Of a stretch of 29,082 nucleotides of DNA, positions 1,372 through 16,080 are shown in pieces; position 1 is the first letter of the stretch; each line of letters opens with the position of its first letter. This DNA is from a virus. The stretch spans positions 1-29,082 of the IMG/VR virus record IMGVR_UViG_3300006919_000291; one strand, 5' to 3'. A model generated the notes under the pieces. It did not search any database and had not been told where the DNA came from. It saw nothing but the letters and a program-made list of their open reading frames with translations. A program made the position numbers and the translations under genes.

Positions 1372-2882
1372 TAGTAATAACTCGCTTTCCTTGGATAAAA
1401 AGGTTCGTCCTCTTCATCACTGAGTAGTCGTAAGAACCCGCCCTGCCTAAACCGTAGCAATGCCTGTGTAGAGGAGTCTACAAGGTCATCATGCTCACCA
1501 GCAGGAAAAGCAGCAAACTCTTCTACAACCTCTTCGGCAAACCGTGTGTTAGGCCGCCATACATTGCCAGAGGCAAACAAGTCAGATACTGCGTTTACAC
1601 GGCTGATCTTATCGTTGCCCCTAGACGGGGTGTATTCCGCAACAGGTATGCCCATCGCTCGTAGCTCAAAGATCAGCGGCGTACCCGCTGCCTTGGCTTC
1701 TACAATGCAGGCATCTGGCTCCCAGTAACCGTAAAACTCATAGGCTTTCTTTTTAAGCTCAGGGAACTCTAGTCGCTCTTTGTGAGCATCAAGCAGGATT
1801 ATGTTCGCCTGCATCGTGCCTACATCGTCTGGGTGGTAAAACACACCCCATGTCGTACAGGCAGAGAAATCTGATCGTTGAGTCTTGAGGAATGCCGTAT
1901 CCCAAGACTGGATAATAAACTCGCATTCAGGCGGCACATCACTGTCCCATTCGCGCCACCATTCCCTTTTCACCAGAGCGCCCTCTTCTGAGGTTGGATT
2001 CTGCTGATACTGGGCATTCCACTTGGGAGCGGGTAATTCGTTGCGTAGCGACTCAAGCTCTTCTAAAGGCCAGAACTGAGGCCATAGCGACTTACCTGAC
2101 GGCATGATCGCCGGGAACTCAATCACCTCCCATTCATCCGTACCAGCCCGTTGCACTGAGGACTTGATAATCTGCCCTGTCAAGTCACGTTTGTGCCATC
2201 GGGTCATAACAACGATGATCGCGCCTCCCGGCTGTAAACGCTGTCTAGGCCCGGAGGTATACCACTCGTAAACTTTATCAAACACACCGGGATCGGCACT
2301 CTGCCCTTCTTGCTCAGAATGCGGGTCATCGATAATCAACAGATCCGCACCCTTACCAGTCACAGCACCGCCAACACCAATAGCGAAGTATTCGCCGCCT
2401 TGTGTGGTACTCCACCGGCCTGCGGCCTTGGAATCTGCCCGTAAACCCAACGCAGGGAAAACCTGCTTGTAGTCTTCACTGTCTACTAGGTTACGAACCT
2501 TGCGACCAAAACCAACCGACAACTCTGCGGTGTGGGCAGTCTGAATGATCTTCTTCTCAGGAAAGTTACCTAGAAACCAAGCGGGGAGTAAGTACGAAGC
2601 AAACTCTGACTTAGTGTGCCGTGGTGGCATATTGATTATCAGACGCTTCAACTCGCCACGGGCAACACGCTCAAAAGCATCCCCCATGATCTTGTGATGC
2701 CTGCCCTCAATAAACGCAGGCCATACATGTTTGATAAACGGCATGAACCCGTCACGGGCCAATTCCTTAGCTTCAGCGGCCTCTAACTCTTCAATAAGAG
2801 CCAGCATCTCGCGCTGCTCATGCTCAGGTAAATTAGGGATCTTCTTGAGAAGATCTGGGTCTACTCTGTCAAGAATCGGCAT
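1371..2882 (-). CDS. terL: Terminase large subunit
   Basis: This is the DNA-packaging motor ATPase and headful or site-specific nuclease, which works at the portal. The product is 503 residues, the usual length for the family. The N-terminal ATPase shows a Walker A variant MPPRHTKS (residues 85-92), Walker B LLIIDDP (181-187) and a coupling motif MTRWHKRDLTG (226-236). The C-terminal RNase H-like nuclease shows an acidic residue in QSWDTAF (D328), one in IVEAKAAGTP (E395) and a final HDDLVDS (D465/D466). All expected catalytic residues are present. The start ATG has a weak AGAGGG site 4 nt upstream. The long leader holds a promoter candidate and palindromes. The small subunit is encoded upstream but is separated by about 460 nt. 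Confidence 0.97.
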   Translation of the reverse strand: MPILDRVDPDLLKKIPNLPEHEQREMLALIEELEAAEAKELARDGFMPFIKHVWPAFIEGRHHKIMGDAFERVARGELKRLIINMPPRHTKSEFASYLLPAWFLGNFPEKKIIQTAHTAELSVGFGRKVRNLVDSEDYKQVFPALGLRADSKAAGRWSTTQGGEYFAIGVGGAVTGKGADLLIIDDPHSEQEGQSADPGVFDKVYEWYTSGPRQRLQPGGAIIVVMTRWHKRDLTGQIIKSSVQRAGTDEWEVIEFPAIMPSGKSLWPQFWPLEELESLRNELPAPKWNAQYQQNPTSEEGALVKREWWREWDSDVPPECEFIIQSWDTAFLKTQRSDFSACTTWGVFYHPDDVGTMQANIILLDAHKERLEFPELKKKAYEFYGYWEPDACIVEAKAAGTPLIFELRAMGIPVAEYTPSRGNDKISRVNAVSDLFASGNVWRPNTRFAEEVVEEFAAFPAGEHDDLVDSSTQALLRFRQGGFLRLLSDEEDEPFYPRKASYY

Positions 2883-2890
2883 AAAACCCT

Positions 2891-3018
2891 CTAGGAATAT
2901 TCCCGTCTAGGAATATTCCCCTCTCATGTATATACCTAAAATAATCATGTATCTGCCGTGGGGGGCACCTTCCTAGTAGGAATCTTCCTTACTCGGCATA
3001 TTCCTAGAGAGAGGAATA
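2891..3018. promoter_or_regulatory. Cluster of GGAATATTCC palindromes upstream of terL
   Basis: Two identical copies of CTAGGAATATTCCC lie at 2891-2904 and 2907-2920, their centres 16 bp apart. A variant, TAGGAATCTTCCT, lies at 2977-2989. A spaced inverted repeat of the same half-site, TATTCCT-6 nt-AGGAATA, covers 2999-3018 and abuts the -10 box of the minus-strand promoter candidate. The same 10-bp palindrome recurs at 12288-12356 upstream of the helicase gene. The arrangement fits an operator array for a dimeric regulator, phage or host, that would control late or packaging transcription. No obvious repressor gene is visible in the window, so the binding protein is unknown. Confidence 0.6.
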
Positions 3019-3022
3019 ACTG

Positions 3023-3049
3023 ATTATACAGAAGTTACACACTTGACAA
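3023..3049 (-). promoter_or_regulatory. Candidate sigma70-type promoter for terL
   Basis: Read on the minus strand, a TTGTCA box (3049-3044) is followed after 15 bp by a perfect TATAAT (3028-3023). The spacing is short compared with the usual 16-18 bp. Transcription would begin near 3016, inside the inverted repeat TATTCCT-AGGAATA, which is a classic operator position, and would give an mRNA leader of about 130 nt that also contains two more copies of the palindrome before the terL start. Confidence 0.45.
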
Positions 3050-3345
3050 GAATGAGGCAAACACTTTGTGTGAAAATTTTGCAAAATTTTTCGGGGGCTA
3101 GGATTCCTACCCCTTTTCCCTGCAAAAAAAGGGTGAGTACTACTTACTGTTTACGGAATATATATTTTTTGGGTAATTGTTTGAGTGTTTCACTATGTAT
3201 ATAGACGGTGGGTGTGTATAGGCATAGGGGGGGGTGGGGTGGTCGCAGGATGATAGACAGATTTGCTGAGAGGCGGGGGTGTGCTAACCGTTAGCATATG
3301 CTGTACTGCGTACACAAACCGTTGGGCTATGGTGTACTGGCTACG
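3050..3345. other. Non-coding gap between small and large terminase genes
   Basis: No convincing gene is seen on either strand. The stretch holds an imperfect palindrome CTAGGATTCCTA near 3098-3109, flanked by G and C runs, an AT-rich tract near 3150-3180, and a G-rich run (eight G, T, four G, T, two G) at 3227-3242. An inverted repeat CCCTTTT / AAAAGGG lies at 3111-3133. Gaps this long between terminase genes are unusual, so a packaging (pac or cos) site is possible, but no direct evidence supports it. Confidence 0.4.
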
Positions 3346-3819: not shown

Positions 3820-4519
3820 GCTTGCCTGTTCCAATGCCTGTATTGGTGCCGATCATACTGCCGCCATGCTGACCGTCCATCACCAGTACCCAGTAATCTA
3901 TACACACAAAAAGCTTGACATATCGAACTTGCCGATAGGAGGCCCAGAATTGCGTTCTAAGCGCCTTTTGCCTCAACCCATACCATCGCATTGCCTACCC
4001 CCTGAACTACGCTTAGACGGAAATTCGTATGTAACTTGTTGATTACAAAGCACTTTCTACTGCATACCAACTATTTACTGCTTATTTGCTTGTCAATACT
4101 TGTATTGCACACTGTTACCTGCTATTCGCGTGCGCGTTCCTCTTATCCCGAATTCATCCCCCTGCTTACCGTGTGGCTGGTGAATGCTTGCTTGGCTAGT
4201 AATAAATCCCCGCACCACTCGTTGTATCTGCAAGCTTTAATATTTATTGCTTACTGGGTATTGCGTACTGTTTTCATATGTGTGTAAAATCCGTTTCATG
4301 GTGAAGGTCGTCCCGCACGGGCAGCCCTGCCACTTGGCCCCAAGGTCAGGCGCACGCGAAAGCCGTACAGCGATACACAGTTCCCCGTAGGCAAACAATT
4401 GCCACAAGCAGACGGGCTATCAGTCAGGGCATCCACCTTGACCACTGCTTAGAGCTTCGGCTCACCAATGACCACTCACCGAGTGCTTATTGTTGATTCG
4501 ATCAATTGGAGAAAGTGTG
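3820..4519. other. Divergent intergenic region, 700 nt
   Basis: The region separates the minus-strand packaging genes from the plus-strand block. It has no gene I can support. The left two thirds are AT-richer, with a TTGACA at 3915-3920 lacking a good -10, and an AGGAGG at 3937-3942 placed 7 nt before a TTG that opens a 30-codon frame (3950-4042); that is only a weak gene candidate. The right third (about 4290-4470) is GC-richer and hairpin-prone: CCCG-CA-CGGG, CTTGG-CC-CCAAG, and GAGC-TTCG-GCTC at 4452-4463, a stable UUCG tetraloop. This right part may be a structured 5' leader of the following operon. Confidence 0.4.
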
Positions 4520-4666
4520 ATGACTACTTCAGAACGTCAGGCCGTGCTGCGGTTCAACCGCCGACGCCTGTTCCTCAACCGAATGATCATGCAAAAGCGT
4601 GCATTCATTTCATCAATCCGCAGGGCTTTGCAATCGCAGGGCACTGCATCAATCGGGAGTTTGTAA
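4520..4666 (+). CDS. Small basic protein, unknown
   Basis: This gene encodes 48 residues with many arginines (for example RFNRRRLFLNRM and SSIRRALQSQ). GGAG precedes the ATG by about 8 nt. The stop TAA overlaps the next start by one base (TAATG), so the two genes are probably translated together. A longer frame beginning at 4468 in another phase covers the same DNA, but it lacks a ribosome site before its first codon and merges into the next gene, so I prefer the two-gene reading. The protein is too short for domain recognition. The high positive charge would suit nucleic-acid binding, and that is only inference. Confidence 0.5.
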   Translation: MTTSERQAVLRFNRRRLFLNRMIMQKRAFISSIRRALQSQGTASIGSL

Positions 4667-4866
4667 TGACAACAACCTTTACTGTTTCGAGAATGCCTGT
4701 CGGCAGCGGGTTCCAAGTGACCCAACAAATTGGTGGTCGCAGACCAGTGATCATCGCCCACTCACGCAGTGCTGATGACGCTCAGAGCTTTGCTTGGCAA
4801 AGATTGTCTGACGCGACTGACCGTGGACGCGAGGCTTTCATAACAATCGACATGCGAGGGTATTAA
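4666..4866 (+). CDS. Small protein of unknown function
   Basis: The 66-residue product begins MTTTFTVSRMPVGSGFQV and continues with IGGRRPVIIAHSRSADDAQSF, ending AFITIDMRGY. The alternating hydrophobic pattern suggests a small beta-rich fold with one central helix. No catalytic motif is visible. The start is the ATG overlapping the preceding stop (TAATG); reading further upstream in the same frame lacks a ribosome site. It is the second gene of the plus-strand block that leads into the MoxR-type ATPase, about 100 nt downstream. Confidence 0.55.
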   Translation: MTTTFTVSRMPVGSGFQVTQQIGGRRPVIIAHSRSADDAQSFAWQRLSDATDRGREAFITIDMRGY

Positions 4867-4969
4867 TCGACGCTCACATTCCAACTGATGAGTGCTGGGT
4901 GGTAACCAGCCGAAACCGTGTAGGAGGCGCGGTCTTGGAAAACCAATACAACAACTTGGAGTGACACCT

Positions 4970-6142
4970 ATGTCCATTAACGCATCAAAGGTCAGCCCTT
5001 CGCAGGCCTCAGAAATGCTGCTGGCACACGCCATCAGTCAACTATCTGGCGGCAAGCGCCACAAGCCCGTGTATCTCTGGGGTACCTACGGCGTTGGCAA
5101 ATCATCCATCGTCAAACAATTGATCACCAAGATTAGCGCCCACTTTGATAAGCCTGTCGGCTTGCTAGATGTTCGCCTGTCACAGTTCGACGCAGTCGAT
5201 ACTCGCGGCATTCCCTACATCCGTGACCAGCGCGATGCGCTCGATGCGGTGGGTAATGACGAAATGGCTGGCATGAGTGACGAAGTGAAACGCGCTGCCT
5301 ATCAGCTACTGTCGGCTGGGCCATCAAAGACTACCGAATGGTCTACGCCATCATGGCTGCCCAATGTGGCGCGTGACGGCGAGTTCGGCATTCTGTTCTT
5401 GGATGAGATACAGCTTGCATGCCAGTCGGTCAAAAATGCTGGATACCAGTTGCTTAATGAGTTCCGCTTGGGCGACTACATCTTGCCTGCTGGCTGGTTT
5501 GTCATTGCCGCATCCAACCGTCCCAATGACGGCGCTGGTGTGTCTGGGCGTATGGATGCTGCTGTAAGCACCCGTTTCAAGTATCACTTGGATGTTATGC
5601 CATCCGCTGCTGAGACCACCGATTACTTTCAAGACATTGGTGTTCGCCCAGAGGTGATCGCGTTCCTGAAGTTTCGCGGTGAGGCTGCCGGTGATCAGGC
5701 TGGACTCATTCATGAGTTCCCCAATGGCGGCACCGCCAAAGACAAGGTTGCTATCGCTACGCCGCGAACATGGGAGTCTGTCAGCGACATCCTTGACGAT
5801 GGCATGGCGGCTGATCTGGAGCACATCGCTATCGAAGGTGCTATCGGCGCTGGTGCTGCTGGCGAGTTTGTCGCGTTCCTCCGCACGATGCGTAACCTGC
5901 CTGACATTGGCATGTTTTTGTCTGACCCGCACAACGTGCCACTGCCCAATGAGATCACCACTCAGTACGCAGTGACCGCTGCGCTGGCTGCGCGGGTGAC
6001 CGCTGACAATCTTGGCAATGGCGTGACCGTTGTGTCCCGCATCAACAACGAACTGCTGGAAGTGTTCTGGATACTGGCAACGCGCCGTGACCCAGACCTC
6101 AAGGCTTCACCTGAGTATGTTGCCCACAAAGCAACCCACTAA
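4970..6142 (+). CDS. MoxR-type AAA+ ATPase
   Basis: The product is 390 residues. Walker A is WGTYGVGKSS (residues 37-46), Walker B ILFLDEIQ (141-148), sensor-1 AASNRP (180-185), and arginines in GRMDAAVSTRF (R194, R202) are candidate finger residues. This layout fits the AAA_5/MoxR group, which remodels or activates partners and usually works with a VWA-domain protein using the MIDAS metal site. Such a VWA protein is encoded two genes downstream. The start is the ATG after a GGAG about 8 nt upstream; an earlier in-frame GTG has no ribosome site. In cellular genomes MoxR-VWA pairs act as chaperones for metal centres or complexes. Its purpose in a phage is unknown. Confidence 0.9.
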   Translation: MSINASKVSPSQASEMLLAHAISQLSGGKRHKPVYLWGTYGVGKSSIVKQLITKISAHFDKPVGLLDVRLSQFDAVDTRGIPYIRDQRDALDAVGNDEMAGMSDEVKRAAYQLLSAGPSKTTEWSTPSWLPNVARDGEFGILFLDEIQLACQSVKNAGYQLLNEFRLGDYILPAGWFVIAASNRPNDGAGVSGRMDAAVSTRFKYHLDVMPSAAETTDYFQDIGVRPEVIAFLKFRGEAAGDQAGLIHEFPNGGTAKDKVAIATPRTWESVSDILDDGMAADLEHIAIEGAIGAGAAGEFVAFLRTMRNLPDIGMFLSDPHNVPLPNEITTQYAVTAALAARVTADNLGNGVTVVSRINNELLEVFWILATRRDPDLKASPEYVAHKATH

Positions 6143-9071: not shown

Positions 9072-9305
9072 ATGGATAATCAAGAGAAGTTTGAGAAGGT
9101 GAGCATCGCGCTTCACGAAGCCCTGCCCGATGAATTAGAGGGGGCATGGGAGATCGCCAGAATCATTGGCATGGTTATGCTTACCTACAAGGTCAGTTCT
9201 CCAGCAGAGGCCGCGCTGATCTGCGTAGAGGCTGCCAGCGAGTACAGCGACTGGCTGGTTGAGCAGTCAGAGGAATGCACCTGCCCACCAGAGGAGATGC
9301 ATTGA
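9072..9305 (+). CDS. Small acidic protein, unknown
   Basis: The 77-residue product is helical and acidic: it contains IALHEALPDELEGAWEIARI and VEAASEYSDWLVEQSEECT, and ends CPPEEMH. The two cysteines near the C-terminus (ECTCP) are the only unusual residues. The start lies one base after the previous stop, and its TGA overlaps the next ATG (TGATG). It belongs to the same plus-strand operon and has no recognised family. Confidence 0.65.
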   Translation: MDNQEKFEKVSIALHEALPDELEGAWEIARIIGMVMLTYKVSSPAEAALICVEAASEYSDWLVEQSEECTCPPEEMH

Positions 9306-9442
9306 TGTGTGATCGACCAGACAGTTCGTTTCACAACCCATACGAGTATGACGCAGAGTACTGCGATGCGTGTGGCGCTGAGATGTACGAAGATGAGGAC
9401 GAAGAGGGCCGAATGTTACCGTTCTGCCCAGACTGTCCATAG
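9305..9442 (+). CDS. Tiny zinc-ribbon-like protein
   Basis: The 45-residue product has two CxxC knuckles: YCDACGAEMY (residues 19-28) and FCPDCP (40-45). Between them is an acidic loop EDEDEEGRM. Paired CxxC motifs of this spacing usually bind one zinc ion, and many phages make such small proteins to contact RNA polymerase, DNA or other proteins; the target here is unknown. The ATG overlaps the previous stop (TGATG), and it is the last gene of the plus-strand block. Confidence 0.6.
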   Translation: MCDRPDSSFHNPYEYDAEYCDACGAEMYEDEDEEGRMLPFCPDCP

Positions 9443-9500
9443 TTGACCACTGGAGTCTATTAGGTTCTAATCACTGAACTCCTGCACGACCCACCCCCTG

Positions 9501-9538
9501 CCAAGCATCCCCTGCTTGGTTAGGGGGAACCCCCCCTA
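9501..9538 (+). terminator. Candidate terminator at end of plus-strand block
   Basis: CCAAGCA-tcccc-TGCTTGG (9501-9519) is a perfect seven-pair hairpin. It is immediately followed by TAGGGGG-aa-CCCCCCCTA (9521-9538), a second GC-rich inverted repeat. Both are placed 60 nt after the last gene of the block. A long U tract is missing, so a bidirectional or Rho-dependent end is possible. Confidence 0.45.
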
Positions 9539-9608
9539 GTTTATTGACCAATCAATAAGTAAAAAAGTTTGCGTCCTGCATCCTTTACAACTCCCATATG
9601 AAAACAAC

Positions 9609-10010
9609 ATTTCGATAGCTCGACACCAAACAGGTACGTCTTGCGCCCAAAATCTGGGATGAGTTCCAGTATCGTGTTAGTCATCCTGCCTCACGGTTTT
9701 TGATAGCCCACCTACAACTGTGTTTTGCATCACCACTGGCACACACAACACCGCTATTGGAAGCGACGCTGGTAACGTAACGACGGGTACTTACAACACG
9801 GCTATAGGTGACCAGCGGTGTTAGTGCCTACAGGCTGTTTTTGATAGCCCACCCCCAAGCCGGACAGAAAATACACCAAGGGTCACAAAAACATTTCTGT
9901 CGGTGATAAGAATATTTATGTATTCCTGCTCAGTCAGTAAGACCAAAGGTATCTACAACACACCTATAGGTGCTATGTGGAATAAGGCTTTGCGGGGTTT
10001 TTTGATAGCC
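9609..10010 (+). repeat. Direct repeats with tail-fibre-like relics
   Basis: TTTTTGATAGCC recurs at about 9697, 9838 and 9998 (spacing 140 and 160), with a degenerate copy at about 9610. Between them, reading frames contain fragments such as TGTHNTAIGSDAG, TGTYNTAIGDQ, GHKNISVGDKN and GIYNTPIG, all fitting the G-x-x-N-x-x-I-G repeats of phage tail fibres. The frames carry stops, lack ATG starts with ribosome sites, and shift between copies. The first and last lie in one frame, each opening with VFDSPP or a similar peptide. This looks like a decayed gene or a store of fibre segments. No intact gene was found in this 630-nt stretch (9443-10071). Confidence 0.55.
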
Positions 10011-10071
10011 AGTTATTAGCTACCAACTTCTGCGTTTTTCTACGCGAATGTGCGTAAGTTGCTTGTGGTTG

Positions 10072-10503
10072 CTAAACCGAATCTAGGACGGTTGTCAGAG
10101 TCTCTATGTCAGCCAGCGAGTCGGTTGGCTTGTCCTCTACTATCATCAGGTAGGTCAGAGAGGCTGCATGCTCCCCGAACTCTTCTGCAATTCTTTTGAA
10201 CGTGCGACTGAGCATCAGGATTTGTTCGTTGCGATTTCCCCGATGCCCACCAGTGTGCGTAGCGGTCATGTCTGGACTCTTGAGGTAAACGCCTGCCTGA
10301 ACAGCTTGCGAAAGTATTCTCTCGGCAGCTTGATGATGCTTGATCGTGATATACCGTTTGAGCAGTAAATGATCAATGAACATCTGGTCAGCAACACGGG
10401 CGCGGCCTATACCGCTATCAGACTCCTCCAAGGCAATGACATGGCGGCGGTGGAGTGCCGCCGTGCCGATGTCGTTAACCTTAGATTTCAACGTCCCACT
10501 CAT
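10072..10503 (-). CDS. Small protein downstream of helicase, unknown
   Basis: The 143-residue product begins MSGTLKSKVNDIGTAALHRRH and contains the segment IDHLLLKRYITIKHHQAAERIL, a helical pattern I have seen in small regulatory proteins of alphaproteobacterial phages, without a confident family. The C-terminus is rich in D, E, L and T (DSLADIETLTTVLDSV). The start ATG overlaps the end of the helicase gene by 23 nt, so expression is likely coupled. No catalytic motif or membrane segment is seen. Its operon position suggests a replication-linked or regulatory role, which is inference. Confidence 0.65.
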   Translation of the reverse strand: MSGTLKSKVNDIGTAALHRRHVIALEESDSGIGRARVADQMFIDHLLLKRYITIKHHQAAERILSQAVQAGVYLKSPDMTATHTGGHRGNRNEQILMLSRTFKRIAEEFGEHAASLTYLMIVEDKPTDSLADIETLTTVLDSV

Positions 10504-13670: not shown

Positions 13671-13993
13671 TGACTGATGAAGAATGGATTGCGGAATACG
13701 AGAAGGCGGTGGCAGAAGTTCATCGCAAGCTCAATGTCTGTGAGAAAGAACTCGTTGACTACTTTGTAAGGACGGATGTCGATCAGCTTGGATCGAAAGA
13801 TTGGTGGGCAAAAGAGGTGCAAACAACGCTGCTCCACCACATTCAAAGTGATATCGGCCTGTTGGCTAAGGGTATTAATAAATATCGCTCATGGCGAGAA
13901 CGCATCGCTAGGATGGAGCGAGAAGGTAAGCTGGAAGGAGACGATATCAACAGCGATAGCCTGCTGGTATACGGGCAGTACGAAATACGATGA
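13670..13993 (+). CDS. Helical phage protein, unknown
   Basis: The 107-residue product is helical and strongly charged: MTDEEWIAEYEKAVAEVHRK at the start, KDWWAKEVQTTLLHHIQSD in the middle and RERIARMEREGKLEGD near the end. The gene starts at the TAATG overlap, and its stop overlaps the nuclease start (ATGA). The tight coupling to the recombination nuclease suggests a shared operon role, but the function is unknown. Confidence 0.65.
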   Translation: MTDEEWIAEYEKAVAEVHRKLNVCEKELVDYFVRTDVDQLGSKDWWAKEVQTTLLHHIQSDIGLLAKGINKYRSWRERIARMEREGKLEGDDINSDSLLVYGQYEIR

Positions 13994-14871
13994 AGATTAC
14001 TAACCAGTTCAACCTCCCTGATGTCGTTGTCGATGCATTGCTTCAAGATGATTACACCAAGGGCAAGTCAAACAGGTCTGTTACAAGCCTGATCGACAGC
14101 CCCCGTGTAGCGATCTTGCAGCGCAATAACGAACACCGGATAGAGCAGGATGTCGTGGATTTCCTGTGGTCTCGGTTCGGCACATCTGTTCACGGCATGT
14201 TTGAGAAGGCGGTAGCCAACAATGAGCATGCCAACGTGATATCAGAGGAACGCATGTACGCCGAGGTCAGGGGTTGGACGATTAGTGGTGCTGTCGATTT
14301 GCAGGAAGTGCATGACGATGGCGTACTGATCAGCGATTACAAGGTCACATCAGTGTGGTCTGTCATTCATGACAAGACTGAGTGGCACAATCAACTGAAC
14401 GCATATGCTTGGCTTGTTCGCTGGTCTAAAGATTTACCAGTCAAAGGGCTAAGGATCATTGCAATACTGCGTGATTGGCAGAGGCGTAAGGCTCAGATGG
14501 AGGAAGATTACCCCAAGTCGCCAGTACATATTGTTGAGATACCCCTGTGGTCAGAGGACGATGCCGACAAGTACATACGAGAACGGGTAAGGCTTCATCA
14601 AGAGGCTGAGTACGATTATCTGGTCAGTGGCAGCGATCTACCGGCCTGTACAGCCGCTGAGAGATGGGAGAAGCCAACTACCTATGCAGTACTCAAAAAA
14701 GGCCGTAAACGGGCTGTGCGCGTCCTGACAACAAGAGAAGAGGCTGAGGCCTACATCGAACCACTTGGCACAGGCCATGCGATAGAGGAGAGGCTTGGTG
14801 AGTCAACCCGATGTTCGCAGGACTGGTGCCGTGTAGCGAGGTGGTGTGATCAATTTCAAATGGAGTCTTGA
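13990..14871 (+). CDS. PD-(D/E)XK exonuclease, RecB/Cas4-like
   Basis: The 293-residue product has a restriction-endonuclease fold signature: FGTSVHGMFE (63-72, histidine 68), GWTISGAVDLQEV (95-107, D103), LISDYKVTS (113-121, D116 and K118) and HNQLNAYAWL (133-142, Q135 and Y139). These are the classic H, D, D-x-K and QxxxY motifs of RecB-type nucleases. Four cysteines occur at residues 220, 275, 280 and 286; three in a row near the C-terminus plus one earlier could hold an iron-sulphur cluster, as in Cas4 or AddB, but the spacing is not decisive. It lies upstream of a single-strand annealing protein, so it is probably the exonuclease partner of a phage recombination system. Confidence 0.85.
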   Translation: MKITNQFNLPDVVVDALLQDDYTKGKSNRSVTSLIDSPRVAILQRNNEHRIEQDVVDFLWSRFGTSVHGMFEKAVANNEHANVISEERMYAEVRGWTISGAVDLQEVHDDGVLISDYKVTSVWSVIHDKTEWHNQLNAYAWLVRWSKDLPVKGLRIIAILRDWQRRKAQMEEDYPKSPVHIVEIPLWSEDDADKYIRERVRLHQEAEYDYLVSGSDLPACTAAERWEKPTTYAVLKKGRKRAVRVLTTREEAEAYIEPLGTGHAIEERLGESTRCSQDWCRVARWCDQFQMES

Positions 14872-15351: not shown

Positions 15352-16080
15352 ATGGAAAATGACGTATCGCTAGGCGATATCTGGGCCACCCTTTACCCAG
15401 TGAAATGCAGCGAGTTTGCAAAGAAGAAAAACGGGTTGACCTATCTGGCTTGGAACGAGGCTTGGCGGCTGCTTATGAGCCATTACCCTACCGCTCATTA
15501 CGAGTTCGGGGAGAACGAGGTTCATGCTGATGGCTCGCAAACAGTTCACTGCACAGTAGCTATCGCAGGTCATGCACGGCACATGTGGTTGCCGGTCATG
15601 GACTACAAGAACAAGGCTATACCTAACCCCAACGCCCGTGATGTCAGCGACACAAAGATGCGCTGCTTGGTTAAGACCATTGCGATGTTCGGTCTAGGGT
15701 TTCATATCTTCCAAGGGCAGGTTCAGCCTGAAGACACATGGGATGATTCCACAGAAGAGGAAAAAGAAGACAAGCCTGTTGTGCAAAAGCCGGTTGCCAA
15801 GAAGCCTGCTGCAAAGAAGCCAGAACCAGAGCCAGAGGCTGACGATGAGGACTTCTTTTTTACCGACACGCAGGAAGGTGCAGACCACTGGGTAGATCGG
15901 TTGATCGAAACAGTGAATGGGCTGGTAGAGACCAAGAAGGGTCTACGCAGTATCTGGGACGGAAATAAGAAAGCGGTGGACAAGCTACAGGCTGAGTACC
16001 CCGAATCTTACAAACGATTGGCTGACGTTATGAAAGCCAAGCAAGACGAACTAAAGAAGAAGGAGTCTGAAAATGGATAG
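15352..16080 (+). CDS. Sak-type single-strand annealing protein (DUF1071)
   Basis: The 242-residue product resembles the Sak/DUF1071 group of phage annealing proteins that pair complementary single strands. Family-like segments are TYLAWNEAWRLL (29-40), LPVMDYKNKAIPNPNARD (80-97) and MRCLVKTIAMFGLGFHIFQG (102-121). After that comes a Lys/Pro/Glu-rich linker (about 139-167, KPVAKKPAAKKPEPEPE) and a helical C-terminal domain ending in a lysine-rich run. The shared GCAGGAGTGCAA leader decides the start. With the exonuclease upstream and the SSB-like protein just downstream, overlapping by 8 nt, it forms a homologous recombination module. Confidence 0.85.
   Translation: MENDVSLGDIWATLYPVKCSEFAKKKNGLTYLAWNEAWRLLMSHYPTAHYEFGENEVHADGSQTVHCTVAIAGHARHMWLPVMDYKNKAIPNPNARDVSDTKMRCLVKTIAMFGLGFHIFQGQVQPEDTWDDSTEEEKEDKPVVQKPVAKKPAAKKPEPEPEADDEDFFFTDTQEGADHWVDRLIETVNGLVETKKGLRSIWDGNKKAVDKLQAEYPESYKRLADVMKAKQDELKKKESENG

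Follow-up and report, generated by a model that had tools for sequence, protein, structure and literature searches.

The window analysed here (the whole 29,082-base virus record) contains at positions 9443 to 10071 a non-coding gap of 629 nt, to which no strand is assigned. The genes on its left run rightward as far as 9442 and a leftward gene has its end at 10072, which places the feature between convergent genes. The initial annotation had placed a direct-repeat region with tail-fibre-like relics at 9609-10010; the feature is there, but the true gap is wider. Its left part holds G+C-rich terminator-like stem-loops (9493-9540, plus strand) and the near-palindrome TATTGACCAATCAATA (9542-9557, no strand), both kept in relatives, followed by a dispersed short element, AGGTACGTCTTGCGCCCAAAA (9632-9652, plus strand). 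In the interval 9300-10200 terminator-like sites are present and a scan restricted to sigma-70-like promoters found none. The gap has no match in Rfam, no tRNA, and no match at E 0.01 among 50,697 phage records; the region of the pieces described below gives six weak matches to these records, with E about 3. As had been claimed, an annealing protein and an exonuclease are encoded in the window: a Sak-type single-strand annealing protein (15352-16080, plus strand; SSAP_Sak, E 1.4e-28) and a PD-(D/E)XK nuclease (13990-14871, plus strand; PDDEXK_1, E 8.9e-5), both given here as context only. RusA is encoded as well.

The 12-mer TTTTTGATAGCC is found three times in the gap without any mismatch, on the plus strand at 9697-9708, 9838-9849 and 9999-10010, with spacings of 141 and 161, which agrees with the direct repeats 140-160 bp apart described in the initial annotation. 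A 12-mer present three times was found in none of 1000 dinucleotide shuffles of the gap, and one present twice in 14 of them. Four tail-fibre-like fragments had also been described, and four pieces are readable on the plus strand. A fifth, QNTVVGGL (9704-9727), missing from that list, lies on the minus strand, opposing the others and facing the first of them. We scored the pieces with a profile of 23-residue fibre units. Pieces 1 and 2, ITTGTHNTAIGSDAGNVTTGTYNTAIGDQ (9729-9815, plus strand), are seen by this profile and by tblastn; ITTGTHNTAIGSDAGN scores 21.4 bits and VTTGTYNTAIGD 17.6 bits. Further along the plus strand, the profile finds the weak pieces GHKNISVGDKNIYV (9881-9922) and KTKGIYNTPIGAMW (9939-9980), the latter containing the palindrome CACCTATAGGTG at 9961-9972. 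GHKNISVG and TKGIYNT, both on the plus strand, score 2.7 and 1.8 bits and QNTVVGGL 5.6 bits, each weak when taken alone; two further profile matches of 0.2 bits were left out of the count. Among 300 shuffles of the gap, the maximum was 8.7 bits and only two reached at least 8 bits. Hence, the fibre likeness of the gap pieces is beyond chance.

The window's own fibre gene lies outside the record. A close relative, G002, has a fibre gene of the same module type, partial in our data as it is ended by the contig end, and our fibre set consists of the best 80 of 592 genes related to it (other fibre families are not represented), which hold 2,289 modules. With this set, the best tblastn match has an E of 7e-8 and covers 9729-9992 (an E calculated for one short subject), so that the gap resembles fibre genes both in this comparison and in the profile. 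ITTGTHNTAIGSDAGN and VTTGTYNTAIGD share one open frame of 47 codons, which contains one GTG and no ATG. The description of the pieces as being without starts is thus right for the main frame, but a 33-codon ATG frame (9918-10019) spans the last piece; this frame is not preserved in L003 and L004, which have about 68 additional nt there. When compared with a functional tail-fibre gene, the gap has the repeat modules, well above its shuffles, and its pieces do not have the continuous frame with a start codon: they are spread over three frame stretches of the plus strand and over the minus strand. The observation on which the initial annotation rested is therefore confirmed, and its interpretation is partly supported, as discussed below.

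We compared the gap with its relatives, defined as 79 distinct loci, the best of 172 obtained by a primase-helicase search. It is kept in close relatives, with about 68 extra nt after GHKNISVGDKNIYV in L003-L006 which are absent from the window, L002 and L023. These extra nucleotides form a strong hairpin around CCGGACAGACAGACACC. The gap of L007, L009 and L011 also contains fibre-like pieces, but other ones than those of the window, and the first of them is missing in L008, L016 and L055. The number and order of the pieces vary by lineage. We then considered all the intergenic DNA of the window and of these 79 loci (515 stretches, 143,846 nt): it contains 24 profile matches of at least 8 bits, against 1 and 0 in two shuffles and 0 in a reversed control. 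These matches fall in 16 of the 80 sources, many of which are close kin. Separately, L031, L034, L040 and their relatives carry another fibre-like motif, of about 30 nt and coding IDTNGNVGIGT, which stands single in short intergenic DNA adjoining the primase-helicase gene; 8 IMG/VR stretches contain an identical 23-mer taken from this motif. Tandem copies of ACCGGACAGACA were noticed in L012 (7740-8300).

Similar pieces exist in other phages. We searched IMG/VR for an inverted N-T-A-V-G pair with an allowed span of 32-62 nt and obtained 24 stretches. Eleven (L134, L135, L136, L140, L141, L144, L146, L148, L150, L151 and L153) were dropped, because the pair lies inside ORFs of 301-742 codons. 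The remaining 13, in about eight groups by context, have their pair outside long ORFs (some overlap ORFs of 61-94 codons, taken as spurious), with a near-constant span of 48-51 nt. Several of these pairs are parts of arrays made of units of 36-49 nt, through which no single frame runs. L137, L139, L143 and L243 have the same structural genes as G002, and the array is located between two of them. The array of L243 has 26 units; all its 25 spacings are 40 nt, so that no unit was skipped between the first and the last. A stop occurs within 12 codons in 3 of these 26 units, and there or directly after in 14. Each 40-nt unit comprises a module of 12 codons and 4 nt more. Units of 40 and 36 nt are mixed in L137, L139 and L143; as units were chosen by their likeness to the consensus (at most 17/40 mismatches), there may be some bias for L137 and L139. 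The majority of array units read T-T-G-x-x-N-T-P-I-G, and it is the N-T-P form which makes the array DNA palindromic. A short ATG frame stands at the array head (49 codons in L137, 37 in L139 and L143, 36 in L243). A search for the N-T-P-I-G module gave 33 stretches by peptide pattern, four of which passed as arrays, the other 29 being known by the pattern alone. When compared with the phage records, the arrays of L137 and L155 have no match and that of L147 has five weak ones, the best being a coding adhesin of Methylophilales phage Venkman. Fibre-like pieces similar to those of the gap thus lie outside long ORFs in related and in other phages, some as inverted pairs or arrays. The gap itself seems to be a small, decayed example of a broader class of intergenic repeats which are fibre-like and prone to form hairpins.

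The variation between units has a codon phase. Calculated in bits at codon positions 1/2/3, it is 0.25/0.17/1.09 in L243, 0.34/0.23/1.11 in L137, 0.33/0.13/1.18 in L139 and 0.31/0.14/1.15 in L143. In L243, the variation at position 3 is higher than at the other two (Mann-Whitney 1.4e-4), which is not so in the two shifted frames (0.93 and 0.96). The gap module behaves in the same way between lineages, with 3/1/13 differences between the window and L009 (17 sites at each position) and 3/0/11 between the window and L017; the close relative L003 gives 1/2/1. Since lineages, like array units, diverge from one another at third codon positions, we concluded that the modules were formerly coding DNA and evolved as such. 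Pairs of closer relatives, without the L137 pairs, differ at 3/4/7 sites, which is too few to judge the end of coding constraint. A phase excess of 8/5/31 between L137 and L139 was not used, because wrongly paired neighbouring units were included in it. That variation should be codon-phased in DNA not translatable over its full length is a striking anomaly, and a directly testable one.

In one related group, the arrays also carry traces of exchange: much of the array region is 95-99% identical, against 70-83% for the flanking genes. The intergenic parts 2111-2210 and 2681-3106 are 96-99% identical between L137 and L139, while the middle, 2291-2680, is 80.5% identical and the flanking genes 75-78%. 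Between L137 and L143, windows of 100 nt are 89-99% and 64-74% identical in the same parts, and the flanks 70-83%. Such an island of identity fits an exchange of the non-coding region itself between diverged phages. The island could be a chimera, but the dataset of L137 differs from that of L139 and L143. L137 and L243 share no comparable island, save near its end, and the gap does not stand out as an island of identity in the group to which the window belongs. The exchange of segments among strains which the initial annotation envisaged may thus have occurred for the non-coding array region of one related group, but none was seen with a fibre gene of our set.

The best reading of these data, to which we give about an even chance, is that fragments of fibre modules were captured, probably repeatedly, into tolerated spacer. 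The gap would then be a spacer, most likely untranslated, having received pieces of coding tail-fibre modules from the fibre genes of other phages, probably on more than one occasion. Short-homology recombination may have joined this DNA into the spacer, possibly with the help of the Sak-type annealing protein, of the exonuclease and of the RusA of the phage. The repeats would afterwards favour duplication, loss and exchange, and in related phages similar repeats may have grown into arrays swapped between phages. Since neither an empty gap nor a donor was seen, capture is what we infer. This reading does not explain why the arrays advance by a constant 40 nt, nor their N-T-P motif. An ATG frame of 68 codons over the pieces of L009 and L011 speaks against it, as do the slow evolution of the gap (see below) and the failure of the gap, and of L137 against L243, to show an island of identity, save near the end of the latter.

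A small fibre-like gene, present here in an ancestor and lost to decay in each lineage independently, is an unlikely alternative, although the codon-phased divergence is what one would expect from it. L017-L021, whose primases are 57-58% identical to that of the window, have pieces on that side of the primase-helicase gene where the window has its own. Open frames are present in L009 and L011 (73 codons, including an ATG) and in L003 (118 and 139 codons). But the main frame of the window has no ATG, one piece is reversed, and the pieces are not the same in number and order from one lineage to another. Moreover, the module is about equally distant from the window in L009 (17/51) and in L017 (14/51), whereas the primase differs from that of the window, by codon position, by 0.15/0.08/0.45 in L009 and 0.34/0.26/0.63 in L017. 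Module divergence does not track that of the primase; pieces which arrived separately would fit this better than the decay of one gene, in a comparison which covers 51 sites only. As for the degraded fibre gene proposed in the initial annotation, its fibre-like pieces are real and a small ancestral gene is possible, but a single degraded gene fits poorly, because the pieces face both ways and similar ones exist at other intergenic sites.

We hold it improbable that the pieces act as DNA or RNA hairpins ending or protecting converging transcripts, with a fibre likeness reflecting origin only. Three terminator-like sites lie in 9300-10200, against a mean of 0.7 in shuffles; 9443-9700 folds better than 200 out of 200 shuffles (z -3.3), and the array of L137 has a fold z of -13.2 against 20 shuffles. 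However, the stretch 9690-9985 has a z of only -1.7, with 16 of 200 shuffles folding at least as well, the positions expected to pair within the unit of L243 show no covariation (p 0.15), the inverted pairs mostly lack a T-run after them, and there is no Rfam match. In favour of a hairpin role, the gap evolves more slowly than four-fold sites. Compared with G002, 34 of its 627 sites differ, against 172/1494 at four-fold sites and 81/6638 at codon positions 1 and 2. The gap therefore does not decay freely; the adjacent gene (10072-10503), however, is likewise slow at its four-fold sites (3/68 against G002).

The initial annotation proposed a silent store of segments recombining into an active fibre gene, which we find about as improbable. 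Such a store would explain why the units of untranslatable arrays vary with a codon phase. The phage encodes recombination proteins, and in L155 an array of 710 nt (4401-5110 of the reverse complement) stands directly 5' of its own fibre gene of 731 codons. This array was noticed to consist of a fibre-like 14-mer alternating with a near-inverted copy in 48-nt steps. Between the near-identical L139 and L143 there is a difference of 80 nt, which equals two units; it may be an assembly effect, as tandem repeats assemble poorly. However, exact matches between 9600-10071 and the genes of our set (the best 80 of 592) reach 16 nt at most. When this set is ordered by longest match, the partial gene of G002 comes 33rd, tied with others at 12 nt; by local score it comes 37th. 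This speaks against segment exchange into the active gene. The array of L155 likewise shares at most 16 nt with its own fibre gene. The N-T-P form, present in some non-coding copies, is absent from all 2,289 modules of the best 80 of 592 fibre genes, and at the level of one DNA pattern it is found in 4 of 24 distinct intergenic copies against 0 of 373 fibre copies (Fisher 1e-5). In G006 a scrap is kept in the gap, yet the fibre ORF of 1,145 codons has none of these modules. Neither a reverse transcriptase, a resolvase or invertase, a Y1 transposase nor an integrase was found in eight records, most of them fragments. No evidence was found for the pieces acting on host range. It is no easier to believe that the arrays store peptide modules, recombination at the shared module moving units behind the head ATG frame or into a fibre gene, with the gap as a decayed store, although the codon phase of untranslated units would follow if the expressed one were under selection.

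The proposed capture of fibre-module fragments can be set beside known systems. The N-T-A-V-G repeats of phage tail-fibre genes (our set of the best 80 of 592) have the same module, T-T-G-x-x-N-T-x-I/V-G, and the same codon phase, but the gap has broken frames and one piece on the opposite strand, and the non-coding N-T-P form is unseen in the 2,289 units of that set. PeSL, the mobile promoter-terminator cassettes of T4-type phages, are intergenic stem-loop DNA linked to phage exchange; in this they resemble the repeats described here, but 9300-10200 has terminator-like sites with no sigma-70-like promoter, and fibre-like sequence instead. REP and BIME are extragenic palindromes of bacteria, short intergenic repeats which occur single or arrayed. 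Palindromic repeats are clear in our arrays and weak in the window pieces; here, however, the variation is codon-phased, and the Y1 transposase missing from the eight phage records is of the RAYT type. The silent cassette systems pilS and vls hold non-expressed partial copies of surface-protein sequence, as the gap does, but the gap has at most 16 nt in common with a fibre gene of our set. For a diversity-generating retroelement, the reverse transcriptase PF00078 was found in 0 of 8 related or array-bearing records (possibly fragments).

Non-coding repeats made of fibre modules are not described in the titles and abstract openings covered, which include few subscription journals. Should the wider pattern hold, non-coding intergenic repeats built from fibre modules would be a class of elements in this group of phages, one which moves between phages independently of genes. 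The codon phase of the variation in untranslatable DNA bears on the question whether phages keep host-recognition variation outside fibre genes.

Finally we must note two other motifs. The 16-nt core GGTACGTCTTGCGCCC, with A-run flanks, occurs in the window at 9632-9652 and in L012, L015, L105-L124 and L244, in 1-4 tandem copies with steps of 20 or 21 nt and in 13 flank contexts, two of which are this gap in two lineages. The 21-mer of the element is present in 22 IMG/VR stretches and its 20-mer in one bacterial MAG contig; in L015, three copies are in frame within an ORF of 117 codons. It resembles a tiny dispersed element; joined flanks revealed no empty site among the fetched loci. A 22-base match to 28 phage records, 27 of them mycobacteriophages, has an E of 0.8 or worse and was taken as chance. 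The second motif, GTTTAAAC, absent from the window, is frequent in L105 (19 times in 14,866 bases), L107 (19 in 13,295), L109 (11 in 13,421) and L152 (7 in 5,361), and was also noted for L154; it is perhaps a phage promoter or regulatory motif.
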